From the NCBI RefSeq assembly GCF_029223525.1, contig NZ_JARHTQ010000002.1:372001-436000 (forward strand): DNA of 64,000 nucleotides, in the 5' to 3' direction. The DNA is from Streptantibioticus ferralitis. Lineage in GTDB: Bacteria > Actinomycetota > Actinomycetes > Streptomycetales > Streptomycetaceae. The notes beneath the pieces were generated by a model. It did not search any database. It saw only the letters and a list, made by a program, of their open reading frames with translations, and had not been told where the DNA came from. Positions 14,618 through 31,054 of this stretch are shown one piece after another. How positions within the stretch are numbered: the stretch's first letter is position 1; the number at the start of each line of letters is the position of its first letter. A program made the position numbers and the translations under genes.

Positions 14618-16963
14618 TCACTCGCGGTGAGCGGGACGGCGGCCGGGGGGTGGCTCCGGTTCGGGGCGGGTGGTGGGGAGTGTGAGCGGCCGGGACTGCG
14701 GGCTCTTACTGGACACGGTGACCGCCTGGCCGCAGTGGCGGATCTCCAGCGGCGCCCCGTCCAGCAGGGTGTAGGTGGCGGTCGAGCCGGTGATCTCGAC
14801 CCGCAGCCGCCGCCGCAGGACCTGCACCGTGAAGGCGAGCCGCCCGAGTTTCTCGGGCAGCCGGGGCGCGAAGCAGAGCGTTCCGTCGGCGTGCCGCATG
14901 CCACCGAACCCCGCGACGAGGGTCAGCCAGGTCCCGGCGAGGGAGGCGATATGCAGGCCGTCGCGGGTGTTGTTCTCCAGGTCGTACAGGTCCATCAAGG
15001 CCGCCTCCGACAGATAGTCGAAGGCCAGCCGCAGATGGCCGACCTCGGCGGCCACGATCCCCTGGATGCACGCCGACAGCGACGAGTCCCGTACCGTCAG
15101 CGGCTCGTAGTACTCGAAGTTGCGCGCCTTCTGCTCCTCCTCGAAGGCGTCTCCTCGGATGAACATCGCGAACACCAGATCCGCCTGCTTGACCACCTGC
15201 TTGCGGTACAGGTCGAAGTACGGGAAGTGCAGCAGCAGCGGGTACTGGTCGGGCCGGGTGTGTGCGAAGTCCCACACCTGGTGGCGGGTGAAGTCCGCGG
15301 ACTGTTCGTGGACCCGCAGCGCGCTGTTGTACGGCAGGGTCATGGCTTCGGCGGCGTCCCGCCAGGCGGCGGCCTCCTCGTCGTCGACGCCGAGCGCGGC
15401 GGCCTGCTGCTCATGGCGCTCGACGGCGCTGGCGGCGTTCCGCAGGTTCTCCTGGGCCAGCAGGTTGGTGTAGACGTTGTCGTCCGCGACCGGGCTGTAC
15501 TCGTCGGGGCCGGTCACCCCGTCGATGTGGAAGCGGCCGTGCGGATCGTGGTGACCGAGCGACTGCCACAACCGAGCGGTCTCCACCAGCAGTTCCACCC
15601 CGGTGTCACGCTCGAACTCCTCGTCGCCGGCGGTCGACACATAGAGCGCGGCGGCATGCGCGATGTCCGCGTTGACGTGGAAGGCGGCGGTTCCGGCCGG
15701 CCAGTACCCGGAGCATTCCTGGCCGTCGATGGTCCGCCAGGGGAAGGCGGCCCCCTTCAGACCCAGCTGGCGGGCCCGCTCCCGGGCGGTGGGCAGGGTG
15801 CTCTGCCGCCAACGCAGAGCCTCGGCGACCGAGTCCGGAGCGGTGTGGGTGAGCAGTGGCAGGACGAAGCCCTCAGTGTCCCAGAACGAGTGCCCGTCAT
15901 AGCCGGAGCCGGTCAGGCCTTTCGCCGGGATCGCCCGCCGCTCGGCGCGGGCACCGGCCTGCAGTACGTGGAAGAGGGCGAAGCGGACGGCCTGTTGGAT
16001 CTCCTCATCGCCGTCGATCTCGACATCGGCGCACGCCCAGAAGTCGTCCAGGTATCCGCGCTGTTCGTCGAGCAGACCCTGCCAGGTGGTGCTGCGGGCG
16101 GCAGCGATCGCGGCCTCCACCTGGTCGCGTACGGCGGGCAGCGAGCGAACTGCCGACCAGCCGTAGGCGACCAGCTTCTCCAGCCGCAGCGTCTCGCCGG
16201 GCGCCAGCTCGCAGGTGACGGTGAGTCGGCCGACGTCCTCCATGCTCTCACTGGAGACCTGGGTGGCCGGCGGCCCCTGCACGGTGTGGTCGGTGGCCGC
16301 CGCGACCCGCAGGCCGCTCGCGGCGGTGCAGTGCACCAGCCGCATCCGCATGCCCTGGGAGTAGTGCTCCTCGGGCTCCAGTGGGGACTCCAGGGCGGCG
16401 GAGACCCGGGGATCGCCGGTGACCTGCGGCAGCTGCTCGTTGGCCACGAGCTCGGACTGGACGACCAGCCGCACCTTGGCGTTCAGCGGTTCCACTTCGT
16501 AGCAGATGGCGGCGATGGACCGCTGGGTGAGCGAGACCAGGCGGGTGGAGCGCACCCGGACGGTGACGCCGGAAGGCGAGGTCCAATCGCAGGTGCGGTA
16601 CAGGAACCCGCCGCGTAGATCGAGCACCCGCTCGTGCGAGCGCAACTGCCCGTAGCGCAGATCGAACGGCTCGTCATCGACCAGCAGCCGGATGATCTTT
16701 CCGTTGGTCACGTTGATCACCGTCTGGCCGGACTCCGGATAGCCGTAGCCCGCTTCCGCGTACGGCAGCGGATGTACCTCGTGCACTCCGTTGAGATATG
16801 AGCCCGGCAGGCCGTGCGGCTCGCCCTCGTCGAGGTTGCCACGCCAGCCGATGTGGCCGTTGGACAGGGCGAAGACCGACTCGGTCTGGGCGAGCACATC
16901 GAGGTGGAGGCTGGTCTCGCGCAGGCACCAGGGCTCGACCGCGAAGGCGTCGTGGCTGATCAT
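14618..16963 (-). CDS. glycoside hydrolase family 65 disaccharide phosphorylase
   Basis: 781 residues, normal for GH65. N-terminal super-sandwich domain ([14 protein letters not shown]-like opening), then an (alpha/alpha)6 barrel with the catalytic acid Glu488 in [15 protein letters not shown], then a small C-terminal beta domain. Phosphorylases of this family split an alpha-linked glucobiose with inversion to beta-glucose 1-phosphate. Candidates are maltose, trehalose, kojibiose or nigerose; I cannot choose. The start overlaps the stop of the upstream HAD gene (ATGA), which points to translational coupling and a joint pathway into glucose 6-phosphate. Confidence 0.9.
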
Positions 16964-17703
16964 GTGCGATCCTCCAGCAGCTCCGCGAGGTCCCGCACGA
17001 CGATGTCGGCGCCGTGCGCCCGCAGGGCGTCCGCCTGGCCGACCCGGTCGACGCCCACCACGTAACCGAAGTGGCCGCTTCGGCCCGCGTCCATGCCCGC
17101 CAGGGCGTCCTCGAACACGGCCGCAGCCACCGGCTCGACGCCAAGGTCGTGGGCAGCCTCCAGGAAGGTGTCGGGGTGCGGCTTCCCCGGCAGCTTGCGC
17201 TCCTTGGCGACGATGCCGTCGATCCGCACGTCGAAGCGCTTGTCCATGCCCACCGAGGCCAGGACATCGCGGCAGTTGGCACTGGACGAGACCACGGCCG
17301 TACGCAGACCGGCCGCGCGTACCGCCTCCACATAGCGGACGGATCCGGGGTACGCCTCGACGCCCTCCGTGTGGATCTTCTCCAGCAGCAGAGCGTTCTT
17401 GCGGTTGCCCAGGCCGTGCACGGTGTCGCGATCGGGCGGATCGTCATCGCTGCCCTCGGGCAACTCGATGCCGCGCGAGGCGAGGAACGCGCGTACCCCG
17501 TCGGCTCGCGGGCGCCCGTCGACGTACTCGTCGTAGTCGGCCACCGCGTCGAAGGGCCGGAAGCCCGGCCCGTCGCGGCGACGCAGGAACTCGTCGAACG
17601 TCGCCTTCCACGCGGCGGCGTGCACGACCGCGGTCTTGGTCAGCACGCCGTCGAGGTCGAACAGGCACGCCCGGATGCCGTCCGGGAGACCGATCTGTGT
17701 CAT
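16960..17703 (-). CDS. beta-phosphoglucomutase-like HAD hydrolase
   Basis: 247 residues from ATG at 17703 (GGGGAAG upstream). Motif [20 protein letters not shown] includes the nucleophile and acid/base aspartates plus the cap histidine; motif [10 protein letters not shown]; Lys in GKPHPDTF; motif [14 protein letters not shown]. This matches beta-phosphoglucomutase, which turns the beta-glucose 1-phosphate from GH65 into glucose 6-phosphate. Some actinobacterial versions are known to fuse the two enzymes; here they are separate but overlapping. Confidence 0.88.
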
Positions 17704-17918
17704 GGAACGCGCTTCCCCGCACCCTGTCCGCGGCATGCCTGATGCCGCCTCGGGCCAGCCGTACGCCGGAGAGTTGTCAGCCATGCCGACGAACCCCGGC
17801 ACGGCCGCCGCCGGCCATGACACCCGTACGGCGCTCACGGCGCGTTAGCGACCCCCGGCAGGACCGCGCCGTCACACTGGCTCGGGGGCGTGGTCGGACG
17901 AGAGCAGGTGAGGTCGCT

Positions 17919-19733
17919 GTGACGTTTGGGCTGGCTCCCCGCAAGGCGCTGCCGAGGGTGCCACTGCACCCTGGAGAGGGTGACAAGTCCCATCTGACCA
18001 GCATCGAGGGCCTGGCCGCGCTGTCCCTGGACGCGCTGAGCTCGGTGGCCTACGGTCCCGAGGCGATCGTGGTGGTGCTGATCGCCGCCGGGACCGGCGC
18101 CCTGACCTCGACGCTCCCGGTCACCCTGGTCATCACCGGCCTGCTCGCGGTGCTCGTCATCTCCTACTGCCAGGTGATCGCGGTCCACCCGGACGGCGGC
18201 GGGGCCTACGCGGTGGCCAAGCAGTCACTCGGGGCACGGGCCAGCCTGCTGGCGGCGGCGAGCCTGGTCGTCGACTACGTACTCACCGTGGCGGTCAGCC
18301 TCGCCGCGGGCGCCGCCAGCCTCGCCTCGGCCTTCCCGGCACTGGCCCACCATCTGCTGGCCGTCTGCCTGGCGGGCCTCGTGCTGCTCACCGCCGTCAA
18401 CCTGCGCGGCATCGCGGAGAGCGCGCGGGTGCTGATGCTTCCCACGGTGCTGTTCATCGTGAGCGTCCTCGGCATCATCGTCGCGGGACTACTGCGCTCC
18501 CACCCGGCCGCGACGGTCGGCAGCGTCCAGCCCGTGCACGCCACCCAAACCCTCGGTCTGCTCCTGCTGTTGAAGGCGTTCTCCTCCGGGTGCTCGGCAC
18601 TGACCGGAGTGGAAGCCATCGCCAACGGCGTACCGGTGTTCCGCGAACCGCGTGTCAAACGCGCTCAACGCACGGAACTGATGCTCGGCTCGCTGCTCGG
18701 TGTGATGCTCGTCGGCCTGTCGGTCCTGATCCGCCGCGACCATGTGGCACCGCGCGGCGGGGTGACGGTGCTGGCCCAACTGACCGCCGGGGCCTACGGA
18801 ACCGGGTGGGCGTACTACGCCACCAACCTCATCGTCACGCTCGCCCTCGCACTCGCCGCGAACACCAGCTTCGGCGGACTGCCCGTCCTGATGAGCCTGC
18901 TGGCCCGCGACCACCGCCTGCCGCACCTGTTCGCGCTGCGCGCGGAACGCCCGGTGTACCGGTACGGAGTCGTGGCGCTGGCCCTGCTGGCCGGCGCACT
19001 GCTCATCGCGGTGGACGGCGACACCCAGCGGCTGATCCCGTTGTTCGCGATCGGGGTGTTCATCGGCTTCACCATCAGCCAGGTCGGCCTGGTTCGGCAC
19101 TGGGCCGGACAGCGCCCGGACGGTTGGGTGCCGCGAGCGCTGATCAACGGCACCGGCGCCGTGCTCACCGCCGTCGCGTGCCTGGTCCTGCTCGCCACCA
19201 AGTTCGTCGCGGGAGCCTGGGTGGTGGTCATCGCGGTACCGCTGATGATGCTGCTGTTCACCCGGATCGAGCGCTACTACACCGCCGTTGGCATCGAGCT
19301 CGGGATCGGCAGCATTCCCGCCACGCCGACCAGGACCACCAGCCTGGTCATCGTCCCGTTGAGCGGAGTCAGCAAGCTCGCCGAAAGCGCGATCAGCGCC
19401 GCGCTGGCCCTGGGCGACGAGGTCATCGCGCTGTCCGTGCAACACGACGCCGCCACCGCCGACCGACTGCGGCGGACCTGGGAGGAGTGGGACCCCGGCG
19501 TGCCCCTCGACATCATCGACAGCCCGAACCGCTCCCTGGTCGGGCCCGTCATCGACTACGTACGGCGGGCCGCACACAACGGCAGACGGGTTGCCGTGCT
19601 GATCCCGCAGGTCGAACCGTGCCACCGGCGCTACGACATCCTGCAGGACCAGCGCGGCATTCTGCTGGCCACCGCCCTGCGCTACCGGACCGACACCGTC
19701 GTGTGCCTGCTTCCGTACCACCTGAGCCTGTAG
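17919..19733 (+). CDS. kimA: KimA-type potassium importer (APC superfamily)
   Basis: 604 residues from GTG at 17919 (AGGTGAGG upstream). The N-terminal phrase SLDALSSVAYGPEAI, the middle LLLKAFSSGCSALTGVEAI and the final LPYH are, from memory, nearly the same as in KimA (YdaO) of Bacillus subtilis, as is the length. About twelve membrane helices are followed by a cytoplasmic domain of about 150 residues (TTSLVIVPLSGVSKLAESAI onward). KimA is a proton-coupled high-affinity K+ importer, inhibited by c-di-AMP in Firmicutes. Placement beside kdp genes strongly supports a potassium role. I see no c-di-AMP riboswitch in its leader. Confidence 0.85.
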   Translation: MTFGLAPRKALPRVPLHPGEGDKSHLTSIEGLAALSLDALSSVAYGPEAIVVVLIAAGTGALTSTLPVTLVITGLLAVLVISYCQVIAVHPDGGGAYAVAKQSLGARASLLAAASLVVDYVLTVAVSLAAGAASLASAFPALAHHLLAVCLAGLVLLTAVNLRGIAESARVLMLPTVLFIVSVLGIIVAGLLRSHPAATVGSVQPVHATQTLGLLLLLKAFSSGCSALTGVEAIANGVPVFREPRVKRAQRTELMLGSLLGVMLVGLSVLIRRDHVAPRGGVTVLAQLTAGAYGTGWAYYATNLIVTLALALAANTSFGGLPVLMSLLARDHRLPHLFALRAERPVYRYGVVALALLAGALLIAVDGDTQRLIPLFAIGVFIGFTISQVGLVRHWAGQRPDGWVPRALINGTGAVLTAVACLVLLATKFVAGAWVVVIAVPLMMLLFTRIERYYTAVGIELGIGSIPATPTRTTSLVIVPLSGVSKLAESAISAALALGDEVIALSVQHDAATADRLRRTWEEWDPGVPLDIIDSPNRSLVGPVIDYVRRAAHNGRRVAVLIPQVEPCHRRYDILQDQRGILLATALRYRTDTVVCLLPYHLSL

Positions 19734-19790: not shown

Positions 19791-19926
19791 CTACGGTGCT
19801 TCGGTGAGCCGCTGTGTCAGCCAGTCGGCGGTGGACGGCAGCCAGTCCGCCCCGGCGTTGCCGAGCAGATGGTCACCGTGCGGGACGAGCAGGTACTCGC
19901 CACCCGGCGCCTCGCGGGCGAGTCAG
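19791..19926 (-). pseudogene. alpha/beta hydrolase tail fossil
   Basis: The minus strand encodes LAREAPGGEYLLVPHGDHLL then GNAGADWLPSTADWLTQRLT and ends EAP-stop at 19791. This is the usual end of an alpha/beta hydrolase with the catalytic His in the HGDH turn. A TGA lies directly upstream and the rest of the gene is absent. The fragment sits in the 227 bp between the K+ importer and the DUF4118 gene. Confidence 0.6.
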
Positions 19927-19960
19927 CGACCCTGTAAGGAGGGAGACGGGAGGTACCGCA

Positions 19961-20710
19961 ATGCGTCGCTTCCTGGACAGGGACCTTGTCGCTGCCGCTG
20001 CCGGGCTGCTGGCTCCGCTCGCCGTGGCGGCGGCGCTCATACCCGCTCGTACGCACATCTCCAACACCGACGTCGCCCTGGTGCTGGTGGTGGTCGTCGT
20101 GGCGGTGGCCGCCAACGGACGCCGCCTCGCCGGTGCGCTCGCGGCGCTGTCGGCCGCCGTCTGGTTCGACTTCTTCTTCACCCGGCCCTACGAGCGGTTC
20201 GCCATCACCAAGTCCGCGGACATCCGTACCGCCGTTCTGCTGCTCCTGGTGGGCCTGGCGGTATCCCAGCTCGCCGCGCGGGCCAGGCGGCTGGAGGTGA
20301 TCGCCATCACCGATGCCCGCTACCTCGATCAGATCCACGCCACCGCTGAGCGGGCACAGACCGCCACATCGGCGAGCGAGGTGGTCGACCAGGTCAAGGG
20401 GCAACTGACCGATCTGCTGGCGCTGCGTGGCTGCCGCTTCGAGTACGGCTCGCTGCTCGGCCATCCGGCACAGCTGCGACCGGACGGCAGCGTGCTCGTG
20501 CGCCGAAAGCCCTGGGACGTCGAGGGCCAGGGCCTGCCGGACGAGGAGATCGAACTGCGTGCCTTCGGCAACGGCCGCTACCTCGGGCGGTTCATGCTGC
20601 GCCCCGCACCGGGCGCCAAACCGTCACTGCAGGCCCGTCTGGTCGCGGTCACCCTCGCCGACCAGGTCGGAGCGGCCCTGCACACGACGGGTACGGCAGG
20701 CGGGGAGTAG
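19961..20710 (+). CDS. DUF4118 membrane protein (KdpD-like sensor membrane domain)
   Basis: 249 residues from ATG at 19961, with GGGAGG upstream. Four close membrane helices (AAAAGLLAPLAVAAALIPA; DVALVLVVVVVAVAANGRRL; LAALSAAVWFDFFFTRPYERF; ADIRTAVLLLLVGLAVSQLA) match the DUF4118 block in the middle of KdpD. A helix and a GAF-like domain of about 110 residues follow. There is no kinase part. It looks like a free-standing copy of the KdpD sensor region, next to and convergent with kdpD. It may help sense potassium or turgor; that is inference. Confidence 0.8.
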   Translation: MRRFLDRDLVAAAAGLLAPLAVAAALIPARTHISNTDVALVLVVVVVAVAANGRRLAGALAALSAAVWFDFFFTRPYERFAITKSADIRTAVLLLLVGLAVSQLAARARRLEVIAITDARYLDQIHATAERAQTATSASEVVDQVKGQLTDLLALRGCRFEYGSLLGHPAQLRPDGSVLVRRKPWDVEGQGLPDEEIELRAFGNGRYLGRFMLRPAPGAKPSLQARLVAVTLADQVGAALHTTGTAGGE

Positions 20711-20751: not shown

Positions 20752-23298
20752 TCATTCGGCGGCCCGGTCCGCCGCCTCACCCACCTCGGGTGGCGGGAAA
20801 CGGTGCGCCGAGGTCGGGAAGTCCAGCGTCACGCAGAAGGCGGGTCCCTCGGTGGTGGGCTCCAAGGTGCCGCCCATCGCCTCGGTGAGGTCTCGCGACA
20901 GCCGCAGCGCAAGGCTGTCTGACAGGGCGTCAGGCAGCCCGGACGCCGAGGGGACGGCGGCTTCCGGGCCCGCTTGGTCCATGCCGTCCGTGACGCGGAT
21001 CCGCAGCCGGTCGGGCAGCACCTCAGCCGTAAGGGTCGGCGGTCGGCCCTTCGGGCTGCGTCGCAGTGCGTCGGCTCCCAGGGCGGTGAGGGCGCGGGTG
21101 AGGGCGGCGGCGTCGGCGATGATGTCGGGCATCCGCTCCGGCAGCTCAAGCAGGATCGTGTGGCCGCCGGGGCCGAGATCGTCCAGGACCGCGGCCAGCA
21201 CCTCGTCGAGGTCGACCGGGCGCAGATACAGATCGAGTGCTCCGGCGTGCAGACGGCCCAGTCGGTCGAGGTCGGAGACGAGCTGGACGGCGCGATGCAC
21301 CGCCGAGCGGGCGGTGCTGAGCAGACGGCCCTGTTCCTCCACCGATCCACCGGGGTGGAGATCATGTAGGCGCGCCAGGGCCGCTTCGGCCGAGTGCAGC
21401 GGGGTGCGCAGGTCGCGTCCCGCGGTGAGCAGCAGCGAGGTGCGGGTGCGTTCGACCGCGGCGACGGTGTCCGTCTCGGCGGCACGTTGCGCGAGTCGGC
21501 CGTGGGCGTGCGCCATCCCCAGCTGCGCCGCGCACGCGCTGAGTACCCGTTGGTCGTCGGCGCCCAGCGGACGGCCGCGCGCGGCCAACGTGAGATCGTC
21601 GTTGACCCGGCTCTCCAGGTCCGCCTCGTAGGGCCGCTCCGGCGGCCGCTCACCCGCGCTGGCGATGACGTACCAGCGGGGTCGGGAGCCGTGCTCCCGG
21701 TCGCGTTCCAGGAGGCTGACCGCCGCCAGGCCGAAGTACTCCCGTACCTGTTCGAGCAGGGTGGGCAGGCTTTGCCCGTGCATCATCGCGGTCGCCAGAC
21801 GACTCAGGGCGCGGGCTTCCGCGGTGGCACGCAGGGCCTGGTACGTCCGCTGAGCGGCGGTCCCCGCGGCCGTGCCGACCAGGGCGGCCGTGGCGATGAA
21901 CACCACCAGCGCGAGGATGTCGTTGATGTGCTCGACGTTCAGCGAGTGCAGGGGTGACGTGAAGTAGTAGTCGGCGAGCAGCCCGGCGGCCACCGCGGCG
22001 ATCAGCGCGGGGTACAGGCCGCCGACGAGGGCGATCACGACGACCAGCAGCAGGTAGAGCACCAGGTCGCTGGCGAGGCCGAGGTGGCCGCGCAGCGCGG
22101 TGAGCAGGAGCGTCAGCGCGGGCAGCAGCAGTGCCGTACCGGCCATCGCGGTCCAGTACCGTCGCGGCCCGGTGCCACGGGTCGGGTGCGGCAGCCGCAG
22201 CAGCGGAGCGGAGGCACCGGCTGCCTCCTCGTGGGTGACGATGTGCACGTCGATGGGTCCTGAGCCGTCGATCGTGCGCTTGCCCACGCCTGCCCGCAGC
22301 AGCGAGCGCATCCGGCCCCGGCGGCTCGCGCCCAGCACGATCTGGGTGACGTTCTCGGACCGGGCGAACTGCAGCAGCGCCTCGACGACGTCCTCGCTGG
22401 TGGCCTGGTGATAGCTGCCGCCCAGCGCCTCCACCAGGGCCCGCTGGTCGTCCAGGGCGGCCGGGTCGGCGTCGGCGAGACCGTCGCTGGGAACGACATG
22501 GACGGCCAGCAGTTCGCTGCCCGGCGTCTTGGCGGTGATCCGGGCCGCGCGGCGGATCAGGGTCTCGCCTTCCGGGCCGCCGGTGAGGCCCACCAGGATC
22601 CGCTCCCGGGTCTCCCAGGGAGCGGCGATGCCGTGCTCCGCGCGGTACCGCTGCAGACCCTCCTCCACCCGGTCGGCCAGCCACAGCAGGGCGAGTTCGC
22701 GCAGCGCGGTGAGGTTGCCCACCCGGAAGTAGTGGGTGAGAGCGGTCTCGATACGGTCCGGCGGGTAGATGTCGCCGTGCGCCAACCGGCGTCGCACCAC
22801 CTCGGGAGGCAGATCGACCAACTCGATCTGCTCGGCGCGCCGGGCCACCTCGTCGGGCAGCGTCTCGCGTTGCCTCACGCCGGTGATCTGCTCGACCACG
22901 TCGTTGAGGGACTCAAGGTGCTGGACGTTGAGCGTGGTGACGACGTCGGTACCGGCCTCCAGCAGTTCCTCGACGTCCTGCCAGCGCTTGGCGTTACGCG
23001 ATCCGGGCACATTGGTGTGGGCCAGCTCGTCGACCAGCGCCACCTGGGGGCGGCGGGCCAGTACGGCGTCTAGGTCCATCTCGGTGAAGCCGATTCCCCG
23101 GTAGGTCAGGGTGTGCCGGGGTACGGTCTCCATGCCCTCGGCCATGGCGGCGGTCGGCCGCCGTCCGTGCGGTTCCACGAACCCGACCACCACGTCGGTG
23201 CCCTGGGCGCGCAGGCGCTGGCCCTCCGCGAGCATGGCGTAGGTCTTGCCGACCCCGGGAGCGGCCCCGAGGTAGATCCGCAACCGTCCGAGTGCCAT
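20752..23298 (-). CDS. kdpD: KdpD-family sensor with a degenerate histidine-kinase core
   Basis: 848 residues, typical length. N-terminal KdpD domain with intact Walker A GAAPGVGKTYAM and Walker-B-like VALVDELAHTN; USP domain (about 245-365) with LGASRRGRMRSLL; four DUF4118 helices (about 395-490); GAF-like region; kinase core from about 615. In the core the H-box reads LLLTAGRDLRTPLHSA, so the phospho-accepting His is Arg628. The N-box reads GADALRRSP (Asn replaced by Asp), the G1 Asp-x-Gly-x-Gly is missing (VTDGMDQAG) and G2 Gly-x-Gly reads SLALRL. No stops or frameshifts are present. It should be unable to autophosphorylate, but may still bind nucleotide and ligands at its N-terminus. Good AGGAG ribosome site. 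Confidence 0.9.
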   Translation of the reverse strand: MALGRLRIYLGAAPGVGKTYAMLAEGQRLRAQGTDVVVGFVEPHGRRPTAAMAEGMETVPRHTLTYRGIGFTEMDLDAVLARRPQVALVDELAHTNVPGSRNAKRWQDVEELLEAGTDVVTTLNVQHLESLNDVVEQITGVRQRETLPDEVARRAEQIELVDLPPEVVRRRLAHGDIYPPDRIETALTHYFRVGNLTALRELALLWLADRVEEGLQRYRAEHGIAAPWETRERILVGLTGGPEGETLIRRAARITAKTPGSELLAVHVVPSDGLADADPAALDDQRALVEALGGSYHQATSEDVVEALLQFARSENVTQIVLGASRRGRMRSLLRAGVGKRTIDGSGPIDVHIVTHEEAAGASAPLLRLPHPTRGTGPRRYWTAMAGTALLLPALTLLLTALRGHLGLASDLVLYLLLVVVIALVGGLYPALIAAVAAGLLADYYFTSPLHSLNVEHINDILALVVFIATAALVGTAAGTAAQRTYQALRATAEARALSRLATAMMHGQSLPTLLEQVREYFGLAAVSLLERDREHGSRPRWYVIASAGERPPERPYEADLESRVNDDLTLAARGRPLGADDQRVLSACAAQLGMAHAHGRLAQRAAETDTVAAVERTRTSLLLTAGRDLRTPLHSAEAALARLHDLHPGGSVEEQGRLLSTARSAVHRAVQLVSDLDRLGRLHAGALDLYLRPVDLDEVLAAVLDDLGPGGHTILLELPERMPDIIADAAALTRALTALGADALRRSPKGRPPTLTAEVLPDRLRIRVTDGMDQAGPEAAVPSASGLPDALSDSLALRLSRDLTEAMGGTLEPTTEGPAFCVTLDFPTSAHRFPPPEVGEAADRAAE

Positions 23299-23677
23299 GG
23301 CCGTGCTCCTGCCGACTCGCCATGATCCATGATCATGCGCTCCGCACTCCCATGGTGCGCCCGGTCGGCCTTCGGGGCGGTGTTCGCGCCCGCGCCGCGT
23401 GTCCGGAATCCACGGGATCGGCTGCCGGGGCGACCGCCGCGATCACACGGCTGTGAACGGCGCCACCACTCAATCGGCTGCGGCGTGTCAAGAGCCCATC
23501 AAGGCGGGCATCGCTAGCGTCAGAGCTCCGCTGACAGGGGTCGCCAGCGGGGGCCGGCAGCCCTTCTCTGGGAAGGCCGGTTTCGGCCGACACCGCCCTC
23601 GGCTCCAGTGCCCCCATGTCCGTACGCCGCAGCCGAGCGGTCCTGTCCCGTCATTGCTCCGCGGGGGTGTGTCGCAC
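23299..23677. promoter_or_regulatory. control region between kdpD and the kdp structural operon
   Basis: 379 bp between divergent genes. A tandem CATGATC-CATGATC-ATG (23321-23337) lies just upstream of the kdpD ribosome site. Further right there are GC-rich short hairpins (for example GGCCG-GTTT-CGGCC near 23577). I looked for the conserved end of a c-di-AMP (ydaO) riboswitch and did not find it. Promoter elements for either side are not clear enough to place. Confidence 0.4.
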
Positions 23678-23761
23678 ATGTCGGATCTTGTCTTCATCGG
23701 CCTCACCATCGTGGCCTTCGCCCTCATCGGCCTGGCCGCCAGGGGGGTGGGCCGGCTGTGA
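23678..23761 (+). CDS. 27-aa single-helix membrane peptide upstream of kdpF
   Basis: ATG at 23678 encodes a peptide that begins MSDLVFIGLTIVAFALIGLA and ends ARGVGRL: one hydrophobic helix with a short basic end, clearly different from KdpF. Its stop overlaps the GTG start of kdpF (GTGA), so the two are translationally coupled. I believe similar peptides precede kdpF in other actinobacteria, but I know no name or function. It may be an extra subunit of the pump. Confidence 0.7.
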   Translation: MSDLVFIGLTIVAFALIGLAARGVGRL

Positions 23762-23847
23762 GCGTCGAGAACATCGTGGGCCTGATCGTCGCCGTGGGCC
23801 TGGTGCTCTATCTGGTGTGCTGCCTGATCTTCCCCGAGAGGTTCTAG
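23758..23847 (+). CDS. kdpF: KdpF, small subunit of the K+-transporting ATPase
   Basis: 29 residues from GTG at 23758, overlapping the preceding peptide by 4 nt. The sequence is one helix with the family ending CLIFPERF and opening VENIVGLIVAVGLVLYL. KdpF stabilises the KdpABC complex in the membrane. The next gene, kdpA, starts 114 bp further on. Confidence 0.9.
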   Translation: MSVENIVGLIVAVGLVLYLVCCLIFPERF

Positions 23848-23943
23848 GTGTGTTGTTCGGCGGATCCTGGTCCGGTCGCGGCCCGTTCGGCGCCGTGACA
23901 CCGATCCGTCGGGCAGGCGCCGGCCGCCTCCGCACTGGGTTCT

Positions 23944-23961
23944 GAACCGGAGAGGTTCTCC
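23944..23961 (+). promoter_or_regulatory. kdpA ribosome site inside two alternative hairpins
   Basis: The 18 bases before the kdpA ATG read GAACCGGAGAGGTTCTCC. GAACC can pair with GGTTC, or GGAGA with TCTCC; the two helices exclude each other and both involve the Shine-Dalgarno GGAGAGG. Confidence 0.5.
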
Positions 23962-25626
23962 ATGAACGACACTCTCGCGGGCTGGCTCCAGATCATCGCC
24001 CTGGTGGGCGCGCTGGCCCTGACCTTCCGGCCGCTGGGTGACCACATGGCCCACGTCCTCACCTCCCCTCGGCACTGGCGGGTGGAGCGCCTGATCTACC
24101 GGGTCGCCGGTGTGCACGCGGACGCCGACCAGCAGTGGTCCGCATATCTGCGCGGCGTCCTGGCGTTCGCCGCGGTCTCGGTGCTGTTCCTCTACGCCTT
24201 CCAGCGACTGCAGAACCACCTGCTGCTGTCCATCGGCATGAAGCCGGTCGCGCCGGATCTGGCGTTCAACACGGCGGCGTCGTTCGTCACCAACACCAAC
24301 TGGCAGAACTACTCGGGCGAGTCGACCATGGGCCATCTGGTGCAGATGGCCGGTCTCGCGGTGCAGAACTTCGTCTCCGCCGCGGTCGGCATCGCCGTGG
24401 TCGCCGCCCTGATCCGCGGTTTCACCAGGAAGAAGACCGACCGGGTCGGCAACTTCTGGGCGGATCTCACCAGGATCGTGCTGCGGGTGCTGCTGCCGAT
24501 CTCCTTCGTGATGGCGATCGTGCTGGTGGCCAGCGGCGTGATCGAGAACTTCCACGGCATCCAGTCGATCACCACCATCGCGGGAGACCACCAGAGCATC
24601 ACCGGTGGCCCGGTCGCCTCGCAGGAGGCCATCAAGGAGTTGGGCACCAACGGCGGTGGCTTCTACAACGCCAACTCCGCGCACCCCTTCGAGAACCCCA
24701 ACCCGTTCACCAACTGGCTTGAGATCTACCTGCTGTTGGTGATCGGATTCTCGCTCCCGCGTACCTTCGGCACGATGGTAGGGGACCGGCGCCAGGGCTA
24801 TGCCATCGTCGCCGTGATGGCTCTGATCTGGGCATCCTCCGTGGCCATCGTGACCGCCAACGAACTGCACAGCGTGAGCAGTTCGGTCGGACACACGGCC
24901 GGGGGAATGATGGAGGGCAAGGAGCAGCGGTTCGGGATCTGGGCATCGGCGCTGTTCGCCGTGTCCACCACGCTGACCTCCTGCGGAGCGGTCAACTCCT
25001 TCCACGACTCGTACACGCCGGGTGGCGGCGGGATGACGATCTTCAACATGATGCTGGGTGAGATCGCGCCCGGCGGCACGGGCTCCGGTCTCTACGGGAT
25101 CCTGATCCTGGCGGTCGTCGCGGTGTTCGTGGCCGGGCTGATGGTCGGCCGCACCCCTGAGTACCTGGGCAAGAAGCTGGGTGCTCGGGAGATGAAGTTC
25201 GCCTCGCTGTACATCCTGACCACCCCGGCGATCGTGCTGGTGGGGTCCGGGATCGCGATGGCGCTGCCGGGGGAGCGGGCCGCGATGCTCAACTCCGGTG
25301 CCCATGGCTTCTCCGAAGTGCTGTACGCGTTCACCTCGGCTGCCAACAACAACGGCTCGGCGTTCGCGGGCCTTTCGGCCGACACCGTCTGGTACAACAC
25401 CGCGCTCGGCCTGGCGATGATCTTCGGCCGCTTCCTGCCCATGGTGTTCGTCCTGGCGCTGGCCGGATCGCTCGCCAGGCAGCAGCCGGTGCCGGTCACC
25501 GCGGGCACGCTGCCCACGCACCGGCCGCAGTTCGTCGGCCTGCTCGCTGCCGTGATCCTCATCGTCGTCGGCCTCACCTACTTCCCCGCGCTGGCGCTGG
25601 GACCACTCGCGGAAGGGCTGCACTGA
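23962..25626 (+). CDS. kdpA: KdpA, K+-translocating subunit
   Basis: 554 residues, standard length, about ten membrane helices. The selectivity-filter loops are visible: [60 protein letters not shown] and [18 protein letters not shown], each with the glycine and polar residues that form the filter. KdpA takes K+ at very low concentration and passes it to KdpB. Its stop overlaps the kdpB start (TGATG). Confidence 0.96.
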
Positions 25627-27761
25627 TGCCTACAGCCACCGCTCAACCGCCGGTTTCCAAGGACCCGCTGGCCCCCAACGTCCACCGGGTGTCCGGTGGA
25701 CTGCTCGATGCCAGGCAACTGGTGACCTCCTTTCCCGACGCGCTGCGCAAGCTCGACCCGCGGACGATGGTCAGGAACCCGGTGATGTTCGTGGTCGAGG
25801 TCGGTGCCGTACTGACCACGCTGTCCGCGATCAAGGACCCGAGCGTCTTCGCGTGGGTGATCACCGCCTGGCTGTGGCTGACCGCGGTCTTCGCCAACCT
25901 GTCCGAGGCTGTCGCCGAAGGCCGCGGCAAGGCGCAGGCCGAGACGCTGCGCCGGACGAAGACCGACACCATGGCACGCCGGCTGACGGACGGTTGGCGG
26001 CCGGGCGCACCGGGCGTGGTGGAGGAGGAGGTCCCGGCGGCCGGGCTGCGGCTGGGGGATCACGTGGTCGTCGAAGCGGGCCAGATCATCCCCGGGGACG
26101 GCGATGTCGTCGAGGGCGTCGCCAGTGTGGACGAGTCGGCGATCACGGGTGAGTCGGCGCCGGTCATCCGTGAGTCCGGCGGTGACCGCTCGGCCGTCAC
26201 CGGGGGAACGAAGGTGCTCTCCGACCGCATCGTCGTGCGAATCACCTCCAAGCCCGGGGAGACCTTCATCGACCGGATGATCGCGCTGGTGGAGGGGGCG
26301 GCCCGGCAGAAGACACCCAACGAGATCGCGCTGAACATCCTGTTGGCCTCGCTGACCATCATCTTCATGGTGGCCGTGGTGACGCTGCAGCCGTTCGCCA
26401 TCTTCGCGGGCGCCGAACAGAGCATCGTCATCCTGGTGGCGCTGGTGGTGGCGTTGATCCCGACCACTATCGGTGCGTTGCTGTCCGCGATCGGCATCGC
26501 GGGCATGGACCGCCTCGTCCAGCGCAATGTGCTGGCGATGTCCGGTCGCGCGGTGGAGGCGGCGGGTGATGTGAACACCCTGCTGCTGGACAAGACCGGC
26601 ACGATCACGCTGGGAAACCGTCAGGCCGCCGAGTTCCTGCCGGTGAGCGGTGTGGAGATCGAGGAACTCGCGGACGCCGCCCAGCTGTCCTCCCTCGCCG
26701 ACGAGACTCCCGAGGGCCGCTCGGTGGTCGTCCTGGCCAAGGAGCGGTACGCACTGCGCGGGCGCACCGAAGGGGAGTTGGCCCGTGCCGAGTTCGTACC
26801 CTTCACCGCCCAGACCCGGATGTCGGGCGTGGACCTGAACAGCACCGAGGACAACCGGTCTTTGCGCAAGGGGGCGGCGACCGCGGTGATGAGCTGGGTC
26901 CGGGAACACGGCGGACATCCCACCGAAGAGGTCGGCCCGATCGTGGACGGCATCTCCGCCAGCGGGGGAACGCCGTTGGTGGTCGGTGAGGTCGCATGGT
27001 CCGAGGGCGCCCGCACGGCCCGGATCCTCGGTGTCATCCACCTCAAGGACGTGGTCAAGCAGGGGATTCGGGAGCGGTTCGACGAGCTGCGCCGGATGGG
27101 CATCAAGACCGTGATGATCACGGGTGACAACCCGCTGACCGCGCGGGCGATCGCGCAGGAGGCGGGCGTGGACGACTTCCTCGCGGAGGCCACTCCCGAG
27201 GACAAGATGGCGCTGATCAAGCGGGAGCAGTCGGGCGGCAAGCTGGTCGCGATGACCGGTGACGGCACCAACGACGCGCCCGCGCTGGCCCAGGCGGACG
27301 TGGGCGTGGCGATGAACACCGGTACCTCGGCCGCCAAGGAGGCCGGGAACATGGTGGATCTGGACTCCAACCCCACCAAGCTGATCGAGATCGTCGAGAT
27401 CGGCAAGCAACTGCTGATCACCCGGGGCGCGTTGACCACCTTCTCCATCGCCAACGACGTCGCGAAGTACTTCGCGATCATCCCCGCGATGTTCGCCAGT
27501 GTCTATCCGGGCCTGCACCGGCTGAACATCATGGGCCTGCACAGTCCGACCTCGGCGATCTCCTCGGCGATCATCTTCAACGCGCTGATCATCATCGCTC
27601 TGATCCCGCTCGCCCTGCGCGGCGTGCGCTACCGGCCCTCGTCGGCGGCCGCGCTGCTCAACCGCAACATCGTGCTGTACGGGTTCGGCGGACTGGTGCT
27701 GCCGTTCGTCGGCATCAAACTGATCGACCTGCTCATCCAGTTCATCCCCGGGCTGCACTGA
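25626..27761 (+). CDS. kdpB: KdpB, P-type ATPase subunit
   Basis: 711 residues. Phosphorylation motif [13 protein letters not shown] (Asp322), actuator motif [11 protein letters not shown], hinge [14 protein letters not shown] and [20 protein letters not shown] are all intact. Seven membrane helices in the usual arrangement, including the [11 protein letters not shown] region. It hydrolyses ATP to drive K+ uptake through KdpA. Overlaps kdpA by one base; kdpC follows after 21 bp. Confidence 0.97.
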
Positions 27762-27782
27762 CAGACAAGGAAGGCGCTCCTC

Positions 27783-28403
27783 ATGGCCGGCTCTCTCGCC
27801 CGCACGGCCCGCCACCACCTGGCGGCGTTGCGGATGCTGGTGGTGTTCACGGTCATCACGGGCCTCGCCTATCCGCTGGCGGTCACCGGCATCGCCCAGC
27901 TCGCGTTCTCCCACCACGCCAACGGGTCGGTGATCAGGGACGGTGGACGGCCGGTCGCCTCCTCACTCATCGGCCAGAAGTTCAACCTGCCGCCCCCGAA
28001 GGGGCGGACCACCGGTGCCCCCGACCCCAGGTGGTTCCAGCCCCGCCCGTCCGCGGGCGGCTATGACCCGGCGAAGTCCGGCGCGTCCAACCTCGGCCCC
28101 AACAACGCCGGTCTGGCGAAGGCCGTGACGGACCGCCGCGCCGCCGTGGCGGCCTTCGATGGCGTGCCCCCGAGCAGCGTTCCGGCCGACGCGATCACCG
28201 CTTCGGGCTCCGGGCTGGACCCGGACATCTCGCCCGCGTACGCCTACGAGCAGGTCAACCGGGTGGCGAAGGCACGCGCCGCGCCGCCGTCAGCGGTGCG
28301 AAAGCTGGTGGCCGACCATGTTCAGGGCCGCACCCTGGGCTTCCTGGGGCAGGAACATGTCAATGTCGTCGCGCTCAACCGCGCCCTGACCGCGCTGAAA
28401 TGA
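27783..28403 (+). CDS. kdpC: KdpC, K+-ATPase assembly subunit
   Basis: 206 residues. One N-terminal membrane helix (MLVVFTVITGLAYPLAVTGI), then a periplasmic-type domain with the family phrases SSLIGQKF, WFQPRPSAGGYDP, SGASNLGPNN, ASGSGLDPDISPAYAYEQVNR and a C-terminal VNVVALN. ATG preceded by AAGGA. KdpC assists coupling between KdpB and KdpA. Confidence 0.95.
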   Translation: MAGSLARTARHHLAALRMLVVFTVITGLAYPLAVTGIAQLAFSHHANGSVIRDGGRPVASSLIGQKFNLPPPKGRTTGAPDPRWFQPRPSAGGYDPAKSGASNLGPNNAGLAKAVTDRRAAVAAFDGVPPSSVPADAITASGSGLDPDISPAYAYEQVNRVAKARAAPPSAVRKLVADHVQGRTLGFLGQEHVNVVALNRALTALK

Positions 28404-28410
28404 GGGCGTG

Positions 28411-29106
28411 ATGCGCCGCCTCCTGGTCGTCGACGGCGAGCCGCAGATGCTACGGGCCCTGGACGTCAACCTGACCGCGCGACAGTATGCGGTGGCCACG
28501 GCTCACGACGGCACCAGCGCCCTGTGGCTCGCCTCCCGCACACCGCCGGACGCGGTCATCGTCAGCCTCGAACTCCCCGACATCGAAGGCGTCGACGTCA
28601 TCACCGGCCTGCGGGCTGGGACGCCGATGCCCATCATCGCGCTGTCCGAGCGCACGGACCCCGCCCACATGGTCGAGGCGTTGGACGCGGGGGCCGACGA
28701 CTGCCTGACGAAGCCGATCTCCATGGACGAGCTGGCCGCGCGGTTGCGCGCGGTGTTCCGCCGCTCGGACCAGTACCAGCCGCGGACCGCCGACGTCGGT
28801 GACTACACCGTCGACCTGTCCGGGTACACCGTCGTACCCAGGTCAGGGCACGGTGCCCCGGTGCACCTCACCCCGACCGAGTGGCGGCTGCTCGTCACCC
28901 TCCTGCGCCACCCCGACCGCCTGGTCACCGGCCACCAACTCCTGCGCGACATCTGGGGACCCGACCACGACCAGAACACCAACTACCTGCGCATCCACAT
29001 GTCGGCCCTGCGTCACAAACTCGAACCCGATCCGTCCCATCCGCGGTACCTGATCACCGAACCCGGCCTCGGCTATCGATTCCAGCCCGAGGGCCGGGCG
29101 GCGTGA
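28411..29106 (+). CDS. kdpE: KdpE-like response regulator lacking the phospho-accepting aspartate
   Basis: 231 residues from ATG at 28411; the ribosome site GAGGG overlaps the kdpC stop. The receiver aligns without gaps to KdpE, but the acidic pocket reads VVDGEP (Gly9 where E. coli has Asp9) and the phosphorylation site reads VIVSLELPD, with Ser52 in place of Asp52. The Ser/Thr switch (ALSER) and Lys (TKP) remain. The C-terminal OmpR winged helix is intact (HLTPTEWRLLVTLL, DHDQNTNYLRIHMSALRHKL, EPGLGYRF). It can still bind DNA but should not be phosphorylated normally, matching the degenerate KdpD. Confidence 0.92.
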   Translation: MRRLLVVDGEPQMLRALDVNLTARQYAVATAHDGTSALWLASRTPPDAVIVSLELPDIEGVDVITGLRAGTPMPIIALSERTDPAHMVEALDAGADDCLTKPISMDELAARLRAVFRRSDQYQPRTADVGDYTVDLSGYTVVPRSGHGAPVHLTPTEWRLLVTLLRHPDRLVTGHQLLRDIWGPDHDQNTNYLRIHMSALRHKLEPDPSHPRYLITEPGLGYRFQPEGRAA

Positions 29107-29307: not shown

Positions 29308-30117
29308 TCACCCGATCTTCCCGCTGATGTAGTCCTCGGTGGTCTGTTGCCGCGGAGTGCTGAAGATGCGCTCGGTCGGGCCGACTTCGACCAGTCGGCC
29401 GGGCTCGCCCACGGCGGGCATGGTCAGGAAAGCGGTGGTGTCCGCGACGCGGGCCGCCTGTTGCATGTTGTGGGTGACGATGACGACCGTGTACGTCTCC
29501 TTGATCTCCCTGATCAGGTCCTCGATCGTCAGGGTGGAGATCGGGTCCAGATGCGAGCAGGGCTCGTCCATCAGCAGGATCTCCGGATCCACCGCCAACG
29601 CCCGGGCGATGCACAGCCGTTGCTGCTGTCCGCCGGACAGGCTCCCGCCCGGCGCCTTGAGCCGGTCCTTGACCTCCGGCCACAACCCCGCCTTGGTCAG
29701 CGCCTGTTCGGCCAGGTCGTCGTGCGGGCCCCGGCCGAGCCGCCGGCCCAGGTGCAGCCCGGCCAGAACGTTGTCGCGGACGGACATGGTGGGGAAGGGG
29801 GTCGGTCGTTGGAAGACCATGCCGACCCGTTGGCGTATCTCGACCGGGTTGCTGTCCTTGGCGTAGATGTCGGCGTCGTCCAGCAGCACGCTGCCGGTCA
29901 CGCTGGCCCCGGGCACGGTCAGATGCAGGCCGTTCAGACAGCGCAGCAGGGTGGACTTGCCGCTGCCCGACGGGCCGATCAGGGCGGTGACCTGACGTGG
30001 CTCGATGGCCAGGTCGACGTCCGCCACCGCGGGACGGCCGTGGTAGGAGGCGGTCAGGTTGACCACGTCGAGACGGGCTGGGGCCGCGGTGTCGGAGGGC
30101 GGGGCTGGGGTCGGCAT
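29308..30117 (-). CDS. pstB: PstB, phosphate ABC transporter ATPase
   Basis: 269 residues from ATG at 30117 (AAGGAG upstream). Walker [11 protein letters not shown]-loop [12 protein letters not shown], signature LSGGQQQR, Walker B ILLMDEP and switch His in VTHN are complete, and the first 18 residues are a Pro/Ala tail. Last gene of the leftward pstSCAB operon, energising phosphate uptake. No phoU follows; the next gene is convergent. Confidence 0.95.
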
Positions 30118-30175
30118 CGCGGGCTCCTTCGCGGTGCGGCGGTCGGCGGCGGTGGTCGGTTGCTGAGTACGTGGT

Positions 30176-31054
30176 TCATCGGGCGCTCCGGGCGATACCG
30201 CGGCGGCTGAGGAGGCGGGCGCCAACGCTGAGCACCAGGACGATGATGATCAGGGTGAGTGTCCCGGCCCAGGCCCGGGCCTGGGCGGTGGCGAAACCGG
30301 TGATGGCGTTGTTGAAGATCTGCAGTGAGAGGGTGGACATCCGTCGGGTCGGGTTGGCCTCCAGGAACAGGTCGTTGCCCAGGGCCGTCAGCAGCAGTGG
30401 CGCGGTCTCGCCCATCGCGCGGGCCACTGCCAGCATGGCGCCGGTGATGATTCCGGAGCGGGCGGTGGGCAGCACGATGGACATCACGGTGCGGGCCCGG
30501 CTCACCCCGAGCGCCAGGCTGGCCTCGCGCAGCTCGTTGGGCACCAGCCGCAGCACCTCCTCGGTGGCACGGATGATCAGCGGCAGCATGATCAGGGCGA
30601 GCGCCACCGCCCCGGCCAGTCCGGAGAACCCGAAGTGCGCGACCCACAGCGCGTAGACGAACGCCCCGGTCACGATGGACGGCAGGCCGATCAGCACGTC
30701 GGTGAGGAAGCTGCACACCCTGGCCAGCCGGCCGCGGTACTCCACCAGGTGGATGGCAGCCGCGATACCGGCCGGCACCGACAGGCCGGTGGCGATGCCG
30801 ACGATGATCACCGAGCCGACGATGCCGTTCGCGAACCCGCCGCCCGCCTGCGAGGGCTCCCCCGGTGGCGTCTGTGTCAGGAACACCGGGCCGAGGTACT
30901 TCAGCCCCTGACCGGCCACATAGGCCAGGATCCACACCAGCAGGGCCACCACCCCGGCGGTGGCGAGCGCCAGCACCACGGTCATCACGGCATTGACGGC
31001 CAGGCGGTGTGACAGACCGCGGCGGACGGGGGAGGCGGGCATACGGGCGGTCAT
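30176..31054 (-). CDS. pstA: PstA, phosphate ABC transporter permease
   Basis: 292 residues from ATG at 31054, which overlaps the stop of pstC by one base. Six membrane helices with the ABC permease EAA-type loop [20 protein letters not shown] and [20 protein letters not shown]. It pairs with PstC to form the channel. Confidence 0.95.

Follow-up and report, generated by a model that had tools for sequence, protein, structure and literature searches.

A 2024 study established that a single KdpD chain carries two kinases (PMC11018627). According to that report, phosphorylation of the pump subunit KdpB at Ser162 in Escherichia coli needs the residues of the serine kinase (Walker A/B and Arg190) and not His673 or the DHp and CA domains of the histidine-kinase core, an E. 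coli KdpD from which DHp and CA have been removed can still phosphorylate the KdpFABC pump and inhibit it, and the serine kinase is K+-responsive in native-like membranes. The survey in the same report places KdpDs without a histidine kinase mostly in species without KdpE, and for a species that had both forms it counted the full-length variant alone. Here we describe a 64,000-nucleotide window of the 8.8-Mb genome of Streptantibioticus ferralitis (contig NZ_JARHTQ010000002.1, positions 372,001 to 436,000), in which kdpFABC is flanked on one side by a full-length KdpD whose histidine-kinase core is dead (hereafter KdpDdeg) and on the other by an orphan KdpE with a pseudo-receiver (hereafter KdpEdeg).

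KdpDdeg resembles E. coli KdpD in domain order and in the Walker A/B and Arg190 equivalents that it keeps (PMC11018627), but its histidine-kinase core is dead by substitution and two intact KdpDs coexist in its genome. With the short or truncated KdpDs of the Deinococcus type described in PMC11018627 it shares a serine-kinase part without a histidine kinase, whereas it is itself full length, with membrane and GAF parts and a dead core of folded length, and the genomes of its clade have KdpE. The pseudo-histidine kinases DivL and laboratory-evolved ChrS (PMC9491836) likewise keep the histidine-kinase fold after the loss of catalysis; in KdpDdeg, unlike them, the chain also contains another, unrelated kinase domain that is kept. 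WhiI and CmrT (PMC12632262) are, like KdpEdeg, DNA-binding regulators whose receiver has no phosphorylatable Asp, but KdpEdeg is a KdpE descendant in a kdpFABC operon, found once so far. Short and truncated forms of KdpD without a histidine kinase are known; a full-length clade of this kind beside intact KdpDE is new, and a literature search, with subscription journals mostly outside its reach, found no paper on a full-length KdpD clade with a dead histidine kinase. According to PMC12632262 the His is missing from 0.9% of HisKA domains and the Asp from 2.0% of receivers. The losses of KdpDdeg and KdpEdeg beside one pump are unusual, yet they have separate histories.

The interpretation that we favour, with moderate confidence, is that KdpDdeg is a serine kinase dedicated to braking the pump, its histidine-kinase module being dead, and that KdpEdeg is an unrelated orphan pseudo-receiver. 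It draws on observed motif losses, retained serine-kinase residues, monophyly, a pattern of selection, linkage to the pump and the orphan history of KdpEdeg.

Results

Loss of the catalytic motifs of the histidine-kinase core in KdpDdeg

The original prediction, made from the letters of the window alone, held that both genes are free of stops and flank kdpFABC, that KdpD has Arg628 for its H-box His, Asp for its N-box Asn, no G1 and a lost G2 with Walker A kept, and that the KdpE-like protein has Ser for Asp52 and Gly for Asp9 with its DNA-binding domain kept. These claims are borne out by the coordinates, the aligned residues and the Pfam matches: both genes are complete and stop-free, and the two KdpE substitutions are Ser53 and Gly10 in the numbering of the protein itself. 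The H-box of KdpDdeg reads AGRDLRTP, with CGC as the Arg628 codon, where both other KdpDs of the genome have VSHDLRTP; the G1 glycines are replaced by Met and Gln, and three G2 glycines by Ser, Ser and Ala. In a Pfam scan of KdpDdeg, the KdpD, USP and DUF4118 families scored above their cut-offs, the HisKA match was weak and HATPase_c was absent at E≤0.001, while the two intact paralogues scored approximately 91 bits each for the latter. The core matches DivL at E 2.4e-5. Scores against the NCBIfam KdpD model (cut-off 1123 bits) were 430 for KdpDdeg and, likewise below, 518 and 483 for the intact paralogues. The KdpD_non_kinase model (NF038185; at least 550 bits, 373 positions of KdpD/USP) gave 353.5 bits over residues 4-356 of KdpDdeg, below its cut-off, and 349 and 325 bits for the intact paralogues, also below.

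Distribution of KdpDdeg and states of the H-box

C-terminal peptide patterns of KdpDdeg led to 28 further loci in named genomes (L017-L040, L045, L050, L051 and L072); 80 of 107 pattern matches were kept, the breadth of the clade is a lower bound, and the sample leans towards the KdpDdeg sequence. A strict search (E≤1e-275) found KdpDdeg in 9 of 394 genomes of the family, the source genome included. In a tree of 91 KdpDs, inferred by a quick search from residues 1-600 only and with its root not fixed, a branch with support of 100 in the Shimodaira-Hasegawa-like approximate likelihood ratio test (SH-aLRT) separates the 33 distinct full members from all other sequences. Members belong to the Streptomycetaceae, Micromonosporaceae (Dactylosporangium) and Streptosporangiaceae (Microtetraspora), and the clade is old. 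Rows identical over their first 300 residues were merged (L108, L109 and L111 stand for L017, L018 and L022), KdpD matches below 600 bits were dropped, four sequences cut by the end of their locus (L010, L011, L097 and L098) were left out of the tree and counts, and L025, whose N-terminus is lost, was left out of the 33-row tables.

G1 and G2 are intact in none of the 33 clade rows, and the N-box Asn is present in two. At the H-box His position the clade has Arg in 24 rows, Gly in 2, a deletion in 2 and His in 5, with no alternative residue in register, whereas all 57 intact rows have His. Parsimony on the KdpD tree, using all rows with a residue at this site, gives 5 changes. The His of the five members was either kept or regained; Arg and His are encoded by CGC and CAC, one base apart, in most members inspected. 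Two loci (L038 and L040) carry an in-frame DHp deletion that includes the H-box, while the N-domain and the DDLGPGG stretch remain.

Retained residues and pattern of selection

When clade residues were mapped onto E. coli K-12 KdpD, the equivalents of G36, K37, D109, E110 and R190 were found in 33 of 33 rows and that of T38 in 32, the remaining row having Ser. Invariant columns, counted with gaps ignored in the 33 clade rows versus the 57 intact rows, number 112 versus 58 of 220 in the serine-kinase domain, 38 versus 27 of 140 in USP, 12 versus 7 of 116 in the membrane part and 17 versus 2 of 110 in GAF, but 2 versus 15 of 70 in DHp and 8 versus 26 of 113 in CA; because the intact rows are more widely sampled, it is the DHp and CA reversal alone that is informative. 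Residues 676-715 (LRPVDL...DDLGPGG; 9 versus 4 of 40) are an exception within the relaxed core, and the DDLGPGG stretch is not wholly new, since the intact KdpD of L041 already has LDDLGPAGH. Arg799 and Asp803 are newly fixed in the core of the clade. In the GAF region, Cys589 (codon 21532-21534, minus strand) occurs in 33 of 33 clade rows, the intact rows having Phe (53), Ile (2) or Leu (2).

Ratios of nonsynonymous to synonymous substitution rates (dN/dS) were calculated by the Nei-Gojobori method between the window and two sister genomes of the same genus (G001 and G002); as these pairs have lineages in common, they are not independent. The serine-kinase domain gave 0.141 and 0.138 for KdpDdeg and 0.160 and 0.187 for the intact paralogue on contig C34, and USP gave 0.103 and 0.096 versus 0.076 and 0.100, both domains evolving about as slowly as in that paralogue. 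In the dead core, values were 0.279 (95% interval 0.185-0.427) and 0.354 (0.230-0.507), compared with 0.105 (0.058-0.176) and 0.139 (0.081-0.230) in the same core of the intact paralogue. The dead core thus evolves approximately 2.6-fold faster by this ratio, yet remains far below 1; in the bootstrap it came down to the intact level in 0 of 1000 replicates for each pair, and the pair of sisters gave 0.388 for the dead and 0.143 for the intact core. Constraint on the membrane part, too, is weaker in the clade (0.32-0.38 versus 0.19-0.28). The core of KdpDdeg is relaxed but not free of constraint. The KdpDdeg frames are open in both sister genomes, and neutral decay, which the original prediction had associated with frameshifts and a dN/dS near 1, is not seen (0.10-0.14 in the N-domain, 0.28-0.39 in the core); simple decay is rejected by this pattern of selection.

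Control by cyclic di-AMP (c-di-AMP) of the Staphylococcus aureus type is also rejected as unsupported: the USP motif (A/G/C)-X-S-X-S-X2-N-(Y/F), as published in PMC8214093, occurs in 0 of 33 clade rows and in 0 of 57 intact rows alike. Because the motif is missing from both, K+ sensing through the membrane and GAF parts is the likelier input.

Linkage to the pump and to intact KdpDE

Flanks of at most 10 kb were fetched, and contigs at some loci end sooner. At least one of kdpA, kdpB and kdpC lies in the fetched locus at 21 of the 28 other clade loci, within 600 bp in 18; among the 21, KdpDdeg is on the same strand as the pump in 12 and on the opposite strand in 9. No kdpE was found in the fetched flanks of any of the 28. 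All 28 genomes have KdpE (E≤1e-55), 30 of 30 fetched copies carry the Asp, and a KdpD-like open reading frame (ORF) adjoins 29 of the 30. KdpB was matched at E≤1e-150 in 27 of the 28 genomes. In one sister genome, contig C30 of G001 (L018; L109, L121) bears the KdpDdeg-kdpFABC module and, approximately 6.6 kb beyond kdpC and outside the fetched flank, an intact kdpDE pair accompanied by a KimA-like gene.

The source genome itself has three KdpDs at E≤1e-5, namely KdpDdeg and two with intact motifs, each of which adjoins a KdpE with Asp. It has three kdpB genes (at least 74% identity), in the window, on contig C23 with kdpA and kdpC, and on contig C37. The contig C37 gene (L106:8913-11054) is full length, 74% identical to the KdpB of the window and retains TGES; no kdpA or kdpC match was found within the 19 kb examined, and its neighbours, read by eye, are purK/purE, a dipeptidase gene and a UDP-glucose dehydrogenase gene.

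KdpEdeg, an orphan pseudo-receiver

KdpEdeg, whose gene starts 4 bases past the kdpC stop, has Ser53 (AGC) in place of the phospho-accepting Asp (Asp52 in E. coli numbering) and Gly10 (GGC) in place of the second acidic residue (Asp9), whereas its first Asp, T/S-position Ser and KP Lys are unchanged; the affected stretches read VVDGEPQ and VIVSLELPD, versus VVDDEPQ and IVLDLGLPD in the intact copy on contig C34. Pfam matches to Response_reg (80 bits) and Trans_reg_C (81.8 bits) identify a receiver fold without its Asp joined to an OmpR-type DNA-binding domain, and the best solved relative is E. coli KdpE.

Its nearest relative (support 99/96) is a KdpE of G009, from another genus of the same family, which has VDNEP but keeps Asp52. 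The gene order there is kdpABC, a kdpD remnant (approximately 94 residues from the N-terminus and 85 from the C-terminus, in a single frame) and kdpE; in a tandem copy upstream, kdpE follows kdpABC without an intervening kdpD. The two tandem modules span L101:2338-13998, and the first KdpE reads VGDEP with Asp52 kept. At the equivalent site after kdpC, G002 has an intact kdpD with no kdpE within 8 kb, and G001 has neither kdpD nor kdpE directly after kdpC. Both congeners have KdpDdeg, and neither gave a match to a KdpE of this kind at the cut-off used. In 394 genomes, four others were matched at E≤1e-95, all with Asp, and when 293 genomes of the order, a set that overlaps the 394, were searched at E≤1e-85, the source genome alone was matched; a more diverged dead KdpE would escape these searches. 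From these gene orders, the simplest history would be that an intact kdpD lay between kdpC and kdpE and was then lost, KdpDdeg being a different gene. Parallel loss in two partners, as originally proposed, is therefore not upheld: none of the 28 loci has kdpE in the fetched flanks, and KdpEdeg has a separate orphan history in which its relative keeps Asp52. A co-evolved pair of dead KdpD and KdpE is rejected by the KdpE tree and by this absence of linkage.

It is possible, and we hold it as a tentative alternative for this protein, that KdpEdeg is functionless and decaying after the loss of its kdpD. The gene is an orphan, its nearest relative and the other KdpEs examined all retain Asp52, and its DNA-binding domain has six unique changes at sites fixed in four intact KdpEs, compared with two in the relative. 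Its frame, on the other hand, is open and free of indels relative to G009, and dN/dS is 0.32, akin to the 0.295 between two intact KdpEs at a like distance.

OmpR-type regulators bind repeats at 11-bp spacing. Two such pairs, GTCAA-N6-ATCAA and GTCAG-N6-GCTGA, are common to the three congeners upstream of kdpF, with small changes in G001 and G002, and similar repeats were seen by eye in the promoters of G009 and G087. This is a putative binding site for a KdpE-type regulator, and because the element is also present in two sisters without KdpEdeg, intact KdpE would be its likelier ligand.

Organization of the locus

Features of the locus are summarized in Table 1.

Table 1. Features of the kdp locus, with positions counted from the first base of the window.
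Feature	Position	Strand	Remarks
KdpDdeg	20752-23298	minus	848 aa, full-length KdpD with dead histidine-kinase core
KdpDdeg residues 606-828	20815-21483	minus	dead DHp and CA core
KdpDdeg Arg628 codon	21415-21417	minus	
KdpDdeg residues 388-490	21829-22137	minus	DUF4118 membrane domain (Pfam)
KdpDdeg residues 221-360	22219-22638	minus	USP domain, published c-di-AMP motif missing
KdpDdeg residues 1-220	22639-23298	minus	KdpD domain with Walker A/B, serine-kinase domain by homology
Operator-like element	23487-23535	plus	pairs of 11-bp-spaced repeats upstream of kdpF, conserved in both congeners
kdpF	23758-23847	plus	29 aa, read by eye
kdpA	23962-25626	plus	
kdpB	25626-27761	plus	TGES motif, likely substrate
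kdpC	27783-28403	plus	
KdpEdeg	28408-29106	plus	orphan KdpE, pseudo-receiver (Ser53, Gly10), DNA-binding domain kept

Several neighbouring genes were also noted. The ORF at 16791-19733 (plus) encodes, from approximately residue 391 to its C-terminus, a KimA-like K+ transporter (best solved relative KimA 6s3k, E 7.5e-127), and its true start probably lies far downstream of the listed one. At 19814-20710 (plus) lies a membrane protein gene with DUF4118 only; a gene of this kind is also close to KdpDdeg in L017, L020, L026, L030, L031 and L032, and in G002 a C-terminal remnant of an intact-type kdpD (L108:7608-7793) lies near the DUF4118 gene on the opposite strand. The downstream gene at approximately 29308-30225 (minus) resembles the end of pstB in the DNA read by eye.

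Discussion

In the mechanism that we propose, the N-terminal Walker A/B domain of KdpDdeg would, at plentiful K+, transfer phosphate to the TGES serine of the KdpB encoded next to it and thereby turn the pump off. The retained USP, membrane and GAF parts would control the serine kinase, and the dead histidine-kinase core would persist as a structural module for dimerization or coupling. Transcription of kdp would be left to the intact KdpDE pairs elsewhere in the genome. KdpEdeg would be a leftover kdpE whose own kdpD was lost and whose phosphorylation pocket then changed, at most a phosphorylation-independent binder of the kdp operator that is translated with the pump. We infer the serine-kinase activity, its target, its input and any DNA binding; KdpDdeg looks like the E. 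coli KdpD deprived of DHp and CA, reached by evolution and with the sensing domains kept.

Several points weigh against a dedicated brake. The activity of the serine kinase is predicted. The TGES serine is present in the KdpB of the window, but P-type pumps also use TGES in catalysis (PMC7535926), so its conservation is no independent evidence. Position 39, the adenine-binding Trp39 in E. coli, is Tyr in 33 of 33 clade rows, though the intact rows have Tyr (40), Phe (16) or Val (1). The dead core is still constrained and so does something, and the intact KdpDs of the same genome could carry out the same serine phosphorylation. One clade locus (L025) is without the serine-kinase domain, no kdpABC gene is nearby in 7 of the 28 loci, and the KdpDdeg-bearing genome of Dactylosporangium sucinum (L039) has no KdpB match at E≤1e-150.

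The constraint on the core, together with the newly fixed Arg799 and Asp803, would also fit a KdpDdeg that mainly modulates intact KdpD through mixed dimers, damping or redirecting its kinase or phosphatase, with the serine kinase secondary. Intact KdpDs coexist in the genome, and the ChrS pseudokinase is reported to heterodimerize with HrrS (PMC9491836). We nevertheless regard this as unlikely: the helices of the DHp dimer rank among the most poorly conserved regions of the protein and are deleted in two members, constraint is strongest on the serine-kinase domain, and the gene keeps its place beside the pump, not beside intact kdpDE.

The original prediction saw selection for a switch that works without phosphotransfer, for example one in which KdpDdeg, bound to a ligand or nucleotide, would hold KdpEdeg directly. 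The first part stands, in that KdpDdeg cannot use the known His-Asp phosphotransfer and is kept by selection; the matched pair with KdpEdeg does not. Direct holding is suggested by the position of both genes beside kdpFABC and by their shared lack of phosphorylation sites, but it is very unlikely, given that kdpE is absent from the fetched flanks of the 28 other clade loci, whose genomes all have an Asp-bearing KdpE, that KdpEdeg has its own orphan history, and that no such KdpE was matched, at the cut-off used, in either congener although both have KdpDdeg. That KdpDdeg is a decaying gene, as the truncated L025 and a His codon that toggles between CAC and CGC by one base might suggest, is highly improbable against 33 full members of one clade in three families with low N-domain dN/dS. 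Hardly credible is a conversion of the His-Asp pair into a serine system, in which KdpDdeg would phosphorylate both KdpB and Ser53 of KdpEdeg and so control pump and transcription; its only support is the Asp-to-Ser change and the shared locus, and the sequence around Ser53 lacks the TGES context of KdpB.

Conclusions

The KdpDdeg clade is a natural separation-of-function series, in which several histidine-kinase sites have been lost whereas the serine-kinase residues tested remain. Its members mostly adjoin the pump, in genomes that retain intact KdpE, and they let the serine-kinase role of KdpD be tested separately from its transcriptional role. The locus also illustrates that a striking double loss can stem from two unrelated histories, and some proteins annotated as KdpD sensor histidine kinases in actinobacteria are not histidine kinases.

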